Shown one piece after another: positions 4,647-15,663 of a stretch of 26,127 nt of DNA. Where the stretch lies: positions 1-26,127 of the IMG/VR virus record IMGVR_UViG_3300044294_000118, one strand, 5' to 3'. Numbering within the stretch: the stretch's first letter is position 1; the number at the start of each line of letters is the position of its first letter. The DNA is from a virus. Both the position numbers and the translations under genes were made by a program. A model generated the notes under the pieces. That model saw nothing but the letters and a program-made list of their open reading frames with translations, searched no databases and was not told the DNA's origin.

Positions 4647-4653
4647 AATGTAG

Positions 4654-4727
4654 TGCCCGTGGCAAGATTCGAACTTGCACTGGAGCGATTTTAAGTCGCC
4701 TATCTCTGCCGGTTGGATTACACAGGC
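4654..4727 (-). tRNA. tRNA with anticodon UAA (predicted Leu, short variable loop)
   Basis: A 74-base cloverleaf can be folded by eye. The acceptor stem is GCCTGTG/CACGGGC (one T-G pair). A 3-bp D stem (ATC/GAT) has GG in its loop, the anticodon stem is GGCGA/TCGCT with loop CTTAAAA, the variable loop has five bases, and the T arm is GCAAG-TTCGAAT-CTTGC. The discriminator base is A, and CCA is not encoded. The anticodon UAA reads the leucine codon UUA, common in these AT-rich genes. Bacterial tRNA-Leu normally has a long variable arm, so the short five-base loop is odd. The gene sits inside the virion operon, 20 bases after the decoration protein gene. Confidence 0.88.
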
Positions 4728-11524: not shown

Positions 11525-11987
11525 CAATTAACTGCTCACCGGTCTTTGATTGTATACGTAATAATAGTTCGCGCTCTAATTCTGGTGATAAATTAGATTC
11601 TGCTAATGCTTGCACTGCAAGTTCTATACCCTCCTGTCTTGCTTTTATGGTTGCTGCATTATCACTATAATGCTTACGAAATGCAGGTGAATGTGTAAGC
11701 ATCCATTGAGCATCTCTGGTATTGCCTTCTTCTGCTGCCTTTGCAATGATATTGGCTAATCGCATACCACCTTTTGCTCTGCCCTCATTAATAGCTTGCA
11801 AAAGCAACAATTCTAATTGGGTAGATTTATCCGTTTTTGCATTAGAAATCCATTCACATAATGAACGATAAGAAACCCCGACAGCGGGTGCAATGTGTTC
11901 TAATGGGCCACCATATGCCGCTAAAATACGCACTTTATCTATAAGTTCATAATTGAGCTTATAGTGTTTGCGCATTAAATTTGCCAT
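11508..11987 (-). CDS. terS: Terminase small subunit
   Basis: A 159-residue protein immediately upstream of and overlapping the large terminase gene. The N-terminal part has a helix-turn-helix with KVRILAAYGGPLEHIAPAVG and SYRSLCEWISNAK, suited to recognising the packaging site. The middle is helical (ELLLLQAINEGRAKGGMRLA, a likely oligomerisation zone), and a segment with RDAQWMLTHSPAFRKHY follows, which resembles terminase small subunits from many siphophages. The C-terminus is acidic. Its start ATG shares a base with the stop of the clamp gene (TAATG), tying the packaging genes to the replication genes in one transcript. Position and fold pattern make the call firm. Confidence 0.87.
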   Translation of the reverse strand: MANLMRKHYKLNYELIDKVRILAAYGGPLEHIAPAVGVSYRSLCEWISNAKTDKSTQLELLLLQAINEGRAKGGMRLANIIAKAAEEGNTRDAQWMLTHSPAFRKHYSDNAATIKARQEGIELAVQALAESNLSPELERELLLRIQSKTGEQLIDVEDS

Positions 11988-13030
11988 TAGGTTCTAATTT
12001 GGATAGGCATGATAAGGTAAGTTTGACTGGTCACATCAGGATTTGTCAAAGTTATGGGTGAAGTTGAGGTATTGGCACTGATAGTAATGGTATCAGAAGA
12101 AAAAGCACGTAAGCCATCAGCAAGGTAATTAGGATTTAACCCAAGTGGGGGTAGTGTACCAGCAATGGGGATTGATTCAATACCGCTATTGGCATCAAAT
12201 TCAGCTGTAATATTAAGTTGACTAGCAGACGCATTAAGTTTAACCACATCATGGCCAATTACTGCGATACGTTCAATAGCGGACAATAGTTGGGAGCGAT
12301 TAATTGTGGCGGTATGAGAGAAGGTTGGTGGTATAAGGCTTTGTACTGCTGGGAATTCACCTTCTAATATGCGACTAATTATTGTAGTGTCATTAATATT
12401 AAAAGCAACATGGGCTTTATCAACTGCGATTGTAAGAGATGGTTGTTTTGCTAATGTAAGACATTTAATAGGTATCACTACATCAAGTGGTATGGTAAAC
12501 GGAGTAGAAATCACGCTAAGTCTATGACCATCGGTTGCCTCTAGTTGTAAATGATCATCAGTACAAATAAAATGCACTCCACAAAGGATTTGTTTAGAGG
12601 GATCAGTTGATGCTGAGGGTAGAACAGCAGATAATGGTGTCAGGTCAACTGATTCACCGATAGCATCAACAATTGGTAGTTCAGGATAATCTGTAGGGTC
12701 ATCACAAGCTAGGCTATAAGATCCGTTTGTAGAAGTAAGTTTGAATTGATTACCTTCAACAGTAAGTTGTATTGCGGCAAATGGATCCATACGGCTAATA
12801 ATATCAGCTAATGTTCGATATGGTACTACGGTAGACCCATTAGATTGAACAGAAGCAGGAATACTACTAATGATACCTAGTTCGAGATCATAAGCAGTGG
12901 CAGTTAGTTTATCATCAGAAGCAATGAAATAAATACCAGCAAGGATTGGATGTGATGGTTTAGAAGAAATTGCACGACTAACTGATTTAAGCAAACCAGC
13001 TAGATCAGATTGTGATGTCAGAGCTTTCAT
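11987..13030 (-). CDS. dnaN: DNA polymerase III beta sliding clamp (DnaN-like)
   Basis: A 347-residue protein that reads as a complete three-domain bacterial clamp, slightly shorter than cellular ones (about 366-385). Recognisable parts are SRAISSKPSHPILAGIYF and a GTDLE-like AYDLELGI in domain 1, then VPYRTLADIISRM and DYPELP. Domain 2 has SKQILCGVHF and ATDGHRLSVI, and the C-terminus is YLIMPIQIR, corresponding to the conserved PMRL end. The wording of the N-terminus and the domain junction is closer to cyanobacterial DnaN than to E. coli as I remember them. It would hold the host replicase, or another clamp-binding enzyme, on phage DNA. It is followed directly by the terminase genes, an uncommon arrangement. 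Confidence 0.88.
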   Translation of the reverse strand: MKALTSQSDLAGLLKSVSRAISSKPSHPILAGIYFIASDDKLTATAYDLELGIISSIPASVQSNGSTVVPYRTLADIISRMDPFAAIQLTVEGNQFKLTSTNGSYSLACDDPTDYPELPIVDAIGESVDLTPLSAVLPSASTDPSKQILCGVHFICTDDHLQLEATDGHRLSVISTPFTIPLDVVIPIKCLTLAKQPSLTIAVDKAHVAFNINDTTIISRILEGEFPAVQSLIPPTFSHTATINRSQLLSAIERIAVIGHDVVKLNASASQLNITAEFDANSGIESIPIAGTLPPLGLNPNYLADGLRAFSSDTITISANTSTSPITLTNPDVTSQTYLIMPIQIRT

Positions 13031-13214
13031 GAAGAATTGAGATGATGGTGTCGTAGTCGTTATTAAATCTAAGAACTACATCAAGTGGTAAATAATCACT
13101 GTCATCTTGGGCGTTATCACGAATTGCAGCAGCAACAGCTAATGCTTCATATAGAAGGTCATTAAGGCGTTCAACGACTGGCATCTGTTTGGCTGAGATG
13201 TTGGCATAAGACAT
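13005..13214 (-). CDS. Small protein upstream of the clamp gene, unknown function
   Basis: About 69 residues from the preferred start MSYANISAKQMPVVERL. A longer form would begin at 13280 inside the preceding gene without better support. The product is mostly helical in its first half (RLNDLLYEALAVAAAIRD) and acidic (NAQDDSDYLPLD), with a C-terminal helix NNDYDTIISILHES. It overlaps the preceding RHH-like gene by 44 bases and the clamp gene by 26 bases, which argues for coupled translation but also means much of it lies in shared sequence. No family is recognised. It might be a small replication accessory protein, judging only by location. Confidence 0.5.
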   Translation of the reverse strand: MSYANISAKQMPVVERLNDLLYEALAVAAAIRDNAQDDSDYLPLDVVLRFNNDYDTIISILHESSDITI

Positions 13215-13422
13215 GAGCAACAATTGCCTCGATGGTAGTACGTGGAATGTCGCCGCGCCATTTATGGCATGTTGCAGCAACGATCTTATGGTACTCCGCT
13301 GTGGTCAATCGTGCAATAGCGCGATTGCGGACGAGGTGAGCACGTGGGATACCAGCAGCAGCGGCTTGTGCATTGAGGCGCGATAGATCAGCGTCAGACA
13401 CATTAAGTTTAATTTCAGGCAT
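13171..13422 (-). CDS. Ribbon-helix-helix-like DNA-binding protein next to the repeat array
   Basis: An 83-residue basic protein. The N-terminal part reads as a ribbon-helix-helix domain: strand PEIKLNVS, first helix DADLSRLNAQAAAAG, turn IPRAHL, and second helix VRNRAIARL. Such proteins bind as dimers to short DNA repeats through the paired strands. The remaining residues include CHKWRGDIPRTTIEAIVAH, which is helical and without known function. The start lies only 18 bases from the first copy of the GGTTGGAC repeat family, so self-regulation or origin binding via these repeats is a natural hypothesis. It is the first gene after the array in the leftward operon that continues to the clamp and terminases. 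Confidence 0.62.
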   Translation of the reverse strand: MPEIKLNVSDADLSRLNAQAAAAGIPRAHLVRNRAIARLTTAEYHKIVAATCHKWRGDIPRTTIEAIVAHVLCQHLSQTDASR

Positions 13423-13440: not shown

Positions 13441-13677
13441 GTCCAACCTTGTTGGTGAGGTTGGACGAGGTTGGACAGGGTTGGACACCAGTGGGGGACT
13501 GGGGTTTCCTATACGTCCAACCTCGTCCAACCTAAGTATATATAAAAAAGGAAAAAAGGGAGGTATGGGGGCAGGGATTACAGGAGAGTTAGTGAAGTAG
13601 GTTGGACCACAAGGTTGGACGAGACAAAAACCAGTGGTAGACAGGGTTTTGGACGACCAACCTGCTTAAGGTTGGAC
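13441..13677. repeat. GGTTGGAC iteron-like repeat array with AT-rich core
   Basis: Nine perfect copies of the octamer GGTTGGAC occur in both orientations. Direct copies start at 13459, 13469, 13479, 13600, 13613 and 13670; inverted copies (GTCCAACC) start at 13441, 13515 and 13525. A near-copy GACCAACC lies at 13655 and forms a 7-bp hairpin with the copy at 13670. Three direct and two inverted copies are spaced exactly 10 bp apart, about one helical turn. Between them lies an AT-rich stretch with TATATA and A-runs (13533-13557). The region is essentially non-coding and sits between the primase gene and an RHH gene. It looks like a replication origin, an operator, or both. Confidence 0.82.
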
Positions 13678-15663
13678 GTAATAGCGTCGACGGCGGCCAG
13701 AGGATTCGCGTTTTGTGATCCAGCCCAGATCTTTGAGAATTGATGCAACCTGCATTTGGTCTGCGCGTGTTTGGCGTTCAATTGGTTTCATAACAGCTTC
13801 AGATAATAATTCTTCAGTAGTTAAAAATTCAACTTTACGTCTTTTGTTCAAATAATCTTGAATTATGGTACGCCATGGTGAATCAACGATATAGCTAGTA
13901 TTTTCATCAGACACTTCAGATTCGGCTTGCAGTGAAAGGTGTATTGGACAATTATTACGATATGAGTGAACAGCAGCGGACCATATTGAATCACGTTCTA
14001 TTTTAAGAGAAGTAGTATCAATTTGATCTTGTTGAGTTTTGGTAGTAGGAATAACCCAGAAGCGACGATTACCAGTTTCATCAACCAGGAAACCAGTAGT
14101 TTTATTAGTAGTACCAACAATTATGCCGCGTCTAGGGAATTGTTCAACGGTTTTACCATATGGTACACGAAAATAATCAATAGGTTGGGAGAGAAAATTT
14201 TTAATTTGGCCAGCATGACGGCGATTAGTAATACGATCAAGTTCAGCCCATTCCATCAACCATGACCGATGTAATACCATAAGATCATCTTTAGAAGAAA
14301 TATCACCTAATGCGTCACTATAAAATTCACCACCAAGACACCCCCAGAAGCTAGATTTATGGGCGCCTTGATCACCCATGATAACGCAAGCATTGTCAAA
14401 TTTACAACCGGGATCAAAACAGCGAGCTACGGCAGCAATAAGAGTACATTTAAGCATTTGGTCATAAATTGTAGGTTGAGAAGAGGAGACATCTGATGGT
14501 CTAATATAAGTAGTAGCAAGGCGATCAATATAAGCAGGTTGAATAGTATCAGCCACATGTTCAAGATAAATACGAACGGGATCATATAAATTTTCATTAG
14601 CAACTTGAACGATGCAATCAATAGCAAGTTCTTTATTCACCTTGAAGCCAAGTTCGGCTAATTTAAGATAAAAGCGTTCAATACCGTCTAATGGTTGTTG
14701 GTTTATTTCAATTTTTTGAGTAAATATATTAAAGCGTATGTTTTGAAAAGCGGAGCGGCAATAGGATAACAATTCAACTGCTTCTAATTTTTCAGGTTTT
14801 GTAATAATTTTTGGCAGTTGTGGATTTGAAATAAATTTAGATGATTGCGGTAGCCAGCCATCTTTTTTTGCCATATCACCAAGAGTGCCGATGGTGACAC
14901 CAGATTTTTTAAATGTATGCCATTTACGCTGACAATCGCTAGGTTTATGTTTTGTAGATTGTGTTGACCAATGCTCCCAATCATCAAGTAAGGAATCATC
15001 ACCGATACTATGTAAAGCCATACCGATAGCAAGCCAATCATCATAATCATCAGCACGAATAGGATTTAAGGCGGTTAGATAAGAACGAGCGCGTAAAGTG
15101 TCATCGGTTGATTTATATTGAACCAAAGGTGCTGTTGATATAGTCTTAAACATTTTTTCGATAAGACAATATGGAGCGGTAGCGATATTAAGATCTTCGG
15201 GCGCATGATTTTTTAGCCAAAAATAACCATCAGTATTAGGGTGTGCACCTGCGACAATAGATTGACAACCATCCCAACGTAATTCGATTTGTTCATTATC
15301 AACGCCAGTTTTATATTTACGAGTATGAATTTGATGCCAAAATGTATTAGGGATTTGGTAAATTATTTGAAAATGGCCATGACGACCTGAGGTAACAGTC
15401 CAACTAGGCGGAAGAGAACAATCCCAAGATTTAAGCAATTGTGATACTGATTGACCATCATGATCAAGAAAAAGAAGGCCACCTGATGGGGTACCACAAC
15501 AAACACCAATTGCTTTAGCGCGACCGATATTTATTTCAGAGAGTAGAGATTGTTTATTAAGAGGATTTTTTTGCCAGCCCTGTTGGTAGGGTCTTTTTTG
15601 GGCATCAACAGCAACAAAGGCCCAATTATCTGGGAGTCGGGCGAGTTCTGCCGTGAGGTTCAT
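13666..15663 (-). CDS. Primase-polymerase fused to VirE-type ATPase (replication protein)
   Basis: A 665-residue multidomain protein. Residues 1-165 match the bifunctional primase/polymerase (archaeo-eukaryotic primase) domain, with catalytic LDHDG (66-70), the SGRHGHF motif (92-98) and ELRWDGCQSI followed by GAHP. Residues about 195-270 look like a PriCT-2 linker domain (DDYDDWLAIGMALHS). Residues about 365-580 form a VirE-like ATPase with a loop GDQGAHKSS (430-438), a Walker B-like LMEWAELDR and TTNKTTGFLVDETGNRRFW. It would prime, and possibly extend, DNA and unwind it at the phage origin. The start overlaps the upstream RHH stop (ATGA). The first domain resembles cyanobacterial proteins. 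The Walker A has His where Gly is usual. Confidence 0.88.
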   Translation of the reverse strand: MNLTAELARLPDNWAFVAVDAQKRPYQQGWQKNPLNKQSLLSEINIGRAKAIGVCCGTPSGGLLFLDHDGQSVSQLLKSWDCSLPPSWTVTSGRHGHFQIIYQIPNTFWHQIHTRKYKTGVDNEQIELRWDGCQSIVAGAHPNTDGYFWLKNHAPEDLNIATAPYCLIEKMFKTISTAPLVQYKSTDDTLRARSYLTALNPIRADDYDDWLAIGMALHSIGDDSLLDDWEHWSTQSTKHKPSDCQRKWHTFKKSGVTIGTLGDMAKKDGWLPQSSKFISNPQLPKIITKPEKLEAVELLSYCRSAFQNIRFNIFTQKIEINQQPLDGIERFYLKLAELGFKVNKELAIDCIVQVANENLYDPVRIYLEHVADTIQPAYIDRLATTYIRPSDVSSSQPTIYDQMLKCTLIAAVARCFDPGCKFDNACVIMGDQGAHKSSFWGCLGGEFYSDALGDISSKDDLMVLHRSWLMEWAELDRITNRRHAGQIKNFLSQPIDYFRVPYGKTVEQFPRRGIIVGTTNKTTGFLVDETGNRRFWVIPTTKTQQDQIDTTSLKIERDSIWSAAVHSYRNNCPIHLSLQAESEVSDENTSYIVDSPWRTIIQDYLNKRRKVEFLTTEELLSEAVMKPIERQTRADQMQVASILKDLGWITKRESSGRRRRYYVQP

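Follow-up and report, generated by a model that had tools for sequence, protein, structure and literature searches.

A probable iteron-type replication origin behind the PrimPol-VapE gene of a tailed phage, and the winged helix that may read it

Origins that lie directly 3' of the gene for a Rep or Pri-Rep helicase are known from the SaPIs and PICIs (PMC6092414, PMC7581432). The SaPI Rep reads iterons located directly downstream of its own gene by means of its C-terminal domain (PMC7581432), and the PICI origins, situated immediately 3' of rep, always have an AT-rich region with a set of iterons on each side; in the case of EcCICFT073 a plasmid carrying Rep and ori replicates (PMC6092414). Three other systems invite comparison. 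ORF904 of pRN1 unites a PrimPol, an SF3 helicase and a winged helix in one protein, and the essential region directly 3' of its gene contains a long conserved stem-loop without iterons (PMC4234260). In the alpha protein of phage P4 a primase is fused to a helicase, and a C-terminal winged helix reads short iterons, at least as Yeo 2002 is cited in PMC4234260. Sfi21, a tailed phage of Streptococcus thermophilus, has in its replication module a noncoding element resembling an origin, PER, extra copies of which block the phage (PMC6356513).

The locus described here was found in a stretch of viral DNA of 26,127 bases, which we call the window. The record lacks a terminal repeat and the contigs of its relatives reach 36–49 kb, so the window is probably a fragment. 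Its source is probably a freshwater cyanophage-like virus, such tailed phages being probably picocyanobacterial. Terminase, portal, head morphogenesis, major head and tail genes are all present in the window, with a tRNA-Leu gene (TAA anticodon; 4653–4727, minus strand) among the head genes. The features of the locus, listed from the primase gene towards the clamp gene, are the following.

13666–15663, minus strand: initiator candidate of 665 aa, PrimPol/PriCT-2/VapE (Pfam and predicted structure)
13669–13878, minus strand: part of that gene coding for the C-terminal winged helix, the proposed iteron reader
13441–13677, no strand: iteron array, candidate replication origin, with nine exact copies of GGTTGGAC and one near copy
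13670–13677, plus strand: iteron, exact GGTTGGAC, within the last codons of the primase gene
13655–13662, minus strand: near-match iteron GGTTGGTC, the tenth copy
13600–13620, plus strand: iteron pair on the initiator side of the core (13600, 13613); the corresponding block runs opposite to the primase sense in 54 of 56 relatives
13533–13599, no strand: asymmetric core of 67 bp between the opposed blocks, AT-rich at one end and containing a purine/pyrimidine tract; candidate unwinding element
13515–13532, minus strand: iteron pair beyond the core, 10-bp spacing; the equivalent block runs in the primase sense in 53 of 56 relatives
13459–13486, plus strand: iteron triplet, 10-bp spacing
13441–13448, minus strand: outermost iteron
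13171–13422, minus strand: RHH-like ORF of 83 aa downstream of the array (sub-threshold Pfam match, NikA-like, E=0.03)
11987–13030, minus strand: DNA polymerase III beta clamp homologue, probable replication accessory

The exact octamer GGTTGGAC occurs nine times within 13441–13677 and nowhere else in the window, starting at 13441(-), 13459(+), 13469(+), 13479(+), 13515(-), 13525(-), 13600(+), 13613(+) and 13670(+), the last of these lying inside the primase reading frame, where it codes for the final residues VQP. The chance expectation for the window is 0.36 copies, and among 100 dinucleotide-preserving shuffles the maximum was 3 and none had nine, which bears out the view of the first-pass annotation that nine perfect octamers are far above chance. 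Its description of opposite orientations on the two sides of an AT-rich segment is equally accurate: the AT-rich stretch TATATATAAAAAAGGAAAAAAGGG, at about 13536–13560, lies between the minus-strand copies at 13515 and 13525 and the plus-strand copies at 13600 and 13613. The 10-bp helical phasing it had also proposed stands for 13459/13469/13479 and for 13515/13525, but not for 13600/13613, which are 13 bp apart; nor is it a rule shared by the relatives, since their tandem spacing ranges from 7 to 10 bp. That annotation had not recognised the repeat, although arrays of this type are known, as set out above, from the SaPIs and PICIs.

The gene neighbourhood reported earlier, with a primase/VirE-type gene and an RHH-like gene on either side of the array and the clamp gene beyond, could be confirmed and refined. 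The 665-aa protein is made up of a PrimPol domain (residues 13–164; PF09250), a PriCT-2 domain (192–265), a VapE-like SF3/D5-type helicase (392–590; Pfam E 4.8e-62) and, in the structure model, a C-terminal winged helix at about residues 596–665 (pLDDT about 90). By sequence the helicase matches the SaPI PriRep1 of structure 7pds with an E value of 1.3e-32, and residues 286–665 of the full model can be superposed on this PriRep1, which is bound to dsDNA, with Z 17.1 (340 aligned, rmsd 7.6), the winged helix of the model sitting where 7pds has its own C-terminal domain. The PrimPol domain matches that of pRN1 by fold (Z 11.4). Taken alone, the winged helix gives fold matches of Z about 6, tied among many winged helices and hence unspecific, and a Foldseek search with the C-terminal domain alone returned no match below E 0.001. 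The origin-binding domain of P4 alpha was absent from the fold-match lists, which does not speak against kinship.

The window thus contains the sequence features of a SaPI/PICI-type Rep-ori unit: a VapE/D5 helicase, a C-terminal domain, and a 3' array in which an AT-rich region lies between two sets of iterons. As in SaPIbov1, SaPI1 and EcCICFT073, where the VapE/D5-type helicase is sometimes fused to a primase, the array follows immediately 3' of the gene, and the C-terminal domain is here proposed to be the origin reader as well. Unlike the SaPIs and PICIs, the module belongs to no satellite island and is found in a tailed phage that has head and packaging genes of its own; among its relatives the layout is multi-block, the words are clade-specific and cassettes are exchanged, and the function of the module as an origin is proposed from sequence. 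A phage-inducible chromosomal island was considered for the element itself and rejected, the window having virion genes of its own where a satellite depends on a helper phage to supply virion proteins. The window protein shares the architecture of P4 alpha and differs from it in the primase, which is of the PrimPol (AEP) type, PF09250 with PriCT-2, and not of the TOPRIM/DnaG type. With pRN1 it shares the combination of domains and the position of the array 3' of the primase; unlike pRN1, it has iterons, and no conserved stem-loop was found in two short sub-segments of the array. The likeness to the Sfi21 PER element is one of description only.

With the primase as the query, 80 loci were collected in a first scan and 110 distinct 3' regions overall, 56 of which are dissimilar (the window and the Synechococcus phage S-LBS1 are counted among the 56). 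Arrays were scored by a de novo word search against shuffles and then by a motif model of the layout. In related phages, where the first-pass annotation had recommended a search for the octamer, the layout is kept in nearly all and the words differ. Oppositely oriented repeat blocks around a core of about 70 bp, directly 3' of the PrimPol-VapE gene, are found in nearly all of the 56: the block at +28 to +66 from the primase stop is in minus orientation in 54 (104 minus and 2 plus matches), and the block at +112 to +168 is in plus orientation in 53. By de novo search the arrays stand well over the shuffle level in most relatives; in a minority (e.g. L167, L175 and L178) the word finder alone was not above shuffles, and the arrays there are called by layout and motif model only. 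The repeat word is clade-specific, with GGTTGGAC, GGTTAGAC, GGTAGGAC, GGTAGGGCA, GGTAGGAA and GGTTGGCAA as its forms. Three contigs of 41–49 kb (G009, G012 and G005) are probably complete genomes, because they end in direct terminal repeats of 127, 123 and 109 bp.

S-LBS1 (MG271909) is the closest annotated isolate, with a primase 48% identical to that of the window. It has a dense array 3' of the primase, as the window does, but with another repeat word (AGGTTGGGCAG/AGGTTAGGCAG) and with neither an RHH nor a clamp gene adjoining; terS comes directly after the array. The main text of the S-LBS1 genome paper does not mention the repeats (PMC6157547). Its dense iterons occupy 34237–34641 (L009 1–405), near the end of the linear record, and include an internal duplicated stretch of about 100 bp. 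Arrays of other words are also found 3' of primase/helicase genes in the distant phages PS3, NatCom_18656 and NatCom_43249. Marinobacter phage PS3 has eleven TGGGGTGA-type repeats (at most 1 mismatch) at or 3' of the primase stop (L266 3927–4300), well above shuffles, and these are likely to be another origin of this kind. In cyanophage S-2L the gap 3' of the PrimPol gene (L265 4027–4385) is rich in GGCAC/GTGCC-like words, a position that would fit the origin of a diaminopurine phage; the GGCAC-like repeats there were not above shuffles. No word exceeded shuffles in Streptococcus phage Javan100, and Synechococcus phage S-H1 was left out, as the large gene at the equivalent place is a different primase type.

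Which protein reads the array? The RHH-like gene begins about 20 bp past the last octamer. Repressors of the Omega/ParG kind bind direct and inverted short repeats upstream of their own genes, and bidirectional short repeats in such a place are typical of the Omega type. On that view the array might serve the RHH-like protein as its operator or as a partition site. The relatives make this very unlikely. The RHH gene is missing from 31 of the 56, all of which retain the array; at L015 and L024 the RHH proteins are 96% identical and the words different, while L024 and L040 have a common array and RHH proteins only 60% identical. The co-occurrence and co-variation expected of an RHH centromere or operator are thus not seen, and an RHH operator or partition site was rejected as the general function, since the array does not go with the RHH gene. 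A small ORF of 69 aa (13005–13214, minus strand; MSYANISAKQ...) overlaps the RHH-like ORF. Relatives of it (MSSLIHIPAKQQPVINRLHD...) are retained even at L011, a locus without an RHH gene, and its longer frame, 13005–13280, gave no PHROG match.

The word changes, on the other hand, with the winged helix, and the clearest cases are natural exchanges between close relatives. The primase cores of L015 and L024 are mostly 80–100% identical, and identity is about 93% once more in the stretch that starts near +290 and takes in the RHH and clamp genes, yet it falls to 52–77% around the primase stop, between about -230 and +260. This replaced tract, which is the same in L014/L027 and L014/L024, comprises the array and the portion of the primase gene that encodes the winged helix; the two have been exchanged as one cassette of about 500 bp in pairs that are about 93% identical on both sides. 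Its counterpart in the window is the winged-helix coding part at 13669–13878 together with the array. In L024 and L040 the winged helix and array are about 94% identical, and everything downstream is replaced to the end of the comparison at +1.85 kb. Three recombinant loci (L089, L183 and L200) combine a catalytic core of the L090 type (82–85%) with a winged helix and a word of the window type.

Across the loci, the recognition-helix region of the winged helix (DQMQVA) is nearly invariant and the wing is variable. Words were classed by their 3' suffix, because the consensus of the motif model is mixed in some loci (e.g. L024, with GGTTAGGAC and GGTAGGAC). Proteins with a short wing (RE[ATSPG]-xG[RK]RR) go with ACG-type words in 25/25 cases and those with a long wing in 0/30; suffix and wing type are concordant in all 55 scored loci (Fisher p 3e-16 for wing type against ACG-type word, a value that overstates independence, as the loci are related). 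In partial Mantel tests, word distance correlates with winged-helix distance given the helicase (r = 0.61), whereas with helicase distance given the winged helix r is -0.10. On the catalytic-core tree the word class requires 7 changes, and on the C-terminal tree 2, the minimum; independent word switches on the core tree number only 3–4, too few for a sign test. As far as these comparisons go, the word follows the C-terminal winged helix and neither the catalytic core nor the RHH gene. The array persists without the RHH gene, and the word is kept when that gene is replaced and changed together with the winged helix; for these reasons the reader of the array is most likely the winged helix of the adjacent primase-helicase and not the RHH protein. 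Part of the co-variation could be due to linkage of neighbours, but the RHH gene, which adjoins the array on its other side, shows no such pattern.

One may go a step further and suppose that each type of wing recognises a particular 3' half-octamer, following a simple code in which the short RE-xGRR wing specifies ACG, the long M/V-xG-R-Q/S-W type GCA, and QKWVFF CAA/AAG, and that winged helix and array form one transferable origin-specificity cassette, exchanged to change replication type. We put this forward tentatively, as a possibility with the odds somewhat against it. If it were true, co-infecting phages or satellites could avoid competing for each other's initiator.

A search blind to the protein leads, in most cases, to the same type of helicase. 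Viral contigs were scanned for the DNA pattern GGTTGGAC-NN-GGTTGGAC alone, which gave 80 loci, 58 with at least four octamers and 22 without an array, and VapE helicases were called in them by tblastn. A VapE helicase (25–54% identity) was present at 45 of the 58 array loci and at 1 of the 22 others (Fisher p 1.6e-9, which is optimistic, some contigs being near-copies of each other), and in all 45 the array lies 3' of the helicase, 40–404 bp from the end of the match. Among the remaining array loci, L294 has its array after a DUF5906 helicase, and L300, L310 and L314 appear similar to it by a look at the sequence only; L349 has, by inspection, a DnaG-like N-terminus of the zinc-finger/TOPRIM type. 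Several of the distant proteins have window-like wings (e.g. KREATGERNYRYYRP and KRDSTGDRQRYYVKK), others unlike ones (RTKTPPREWRYVAP). This tie to VapE helicases also bears on the idea that the small terminase recognises the array as a cos or pac site for packaging. The genes terS and terL do lie about 1.5–3.5 kb downstream of the array, and in S-LBS1 terS follows it directly; but L024 and L040 retain the array while the sequence downstream has been replaced, and in the L090 clade other genes come after it. A packaging site is, in our judgement, extremely improbable.

Another possibility is that hairpins are what is read, as has been proposed for pRN1, and that the octamers are only parts of stems. 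The shared protein architecture and the position 3' of the gene are in its favour, as is the fact that the opposed iterons of the window (the triplet 13459–13486 with 13515–13533) yield perfect inverted repeats of 19 nt. However, single-strand folding of two fixed sub-segments of the array, carried out for about 35 relatives, gave scattered z scores and no consistent excess of stability, and hairpins would leave the words, the tandem copies and the link to the wing unexplained. We rate the chances of a stem-loop origin as very low.

Replication initiators often autoregulate, and the array lies between the primase gene and the RHH, clamp and terminase genes, which run in the same direction; the role of the array might be mainly regulatory, with the initiator repressing or terminating transcription between early and late genes and replication starting elsewhere. 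This has a small chance of being right. Conserved opposed blocks around an AT/purine core fit an origin better, and the matching PICI layout has a proven Rep-ori function (PMC6092414). The array may also have a dual role, as origin and in regulation.

We consider the best-supported reading, with a probability of roughly 0.87, to be that the array is a phage replication origin of the PICI-type iteron kind whose initiator is the adjacent PrimPol-VapE helicase, reading it through the winged helix. The first-pass annotation had suggested an origin to which a phage initiator binds, and the conserved layout, the tracking of wing and word, the swaps and the PICI match all speak for it. The steps we infer would be as follows. 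The winged-helix domains of the primase-helicase would attach to the octamers of the opposed blocks on either side of the core of about 70 bp, and binding there would load helicase rings that face each other. The SF3/D5-type helicase would melt the AT-rich end of the core, and the PrimPol domain would prime synthesis in both directions, perhaps with the phage beta clamp plus the host replicase or the PrimPol itself. GC skew, a check that the first-pass annotation had proposed, does not single out the array consistently and speaks neither for nor against the origin: of 12 sequences, 5 have the skew minimum within about 0.3–1.7 kb of the array, and two have a maximum no more than 60 bp from it. 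In-phase TAG/TAA repeats resembling DnaA-trios are strong in the cores of a few loci (L182 and L189) and not general (mean z 0.37). In the cores of L182, L189 and L195 (about +60 to +132 from the primase stop) the TAG/TAA runs have the AT-rich end on one side and, on the other, a G-rich run by the iterons, an order that recalls the DnaA-trio. With respect to the iteron blocks, the AT/purine core points one way in the window clade (13533–13599 in the window) and the opposite way in the L090 clade (e.g. L190), and its orientation in the recombinants L089, L183 and L200 goes with their winged helix.

The origin type itself has already been published; what these sequences would add is its wide distribution in phages, the relation of wing to word and the exchange of cassettes. 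In a large group of tailed phages, among them one cultured relative that infects Synechococcus, an iteron origin 3' of the helicase gene seems to be the rule, and comparable arrays also follow distant VapE helicases and, in at least one case, a DUF5906 helicase. These phages thereby gain a defined candidate origin and a named domain that is expected to read it, and their natural swaps make the rule of protein–DNA recognition directly testable.
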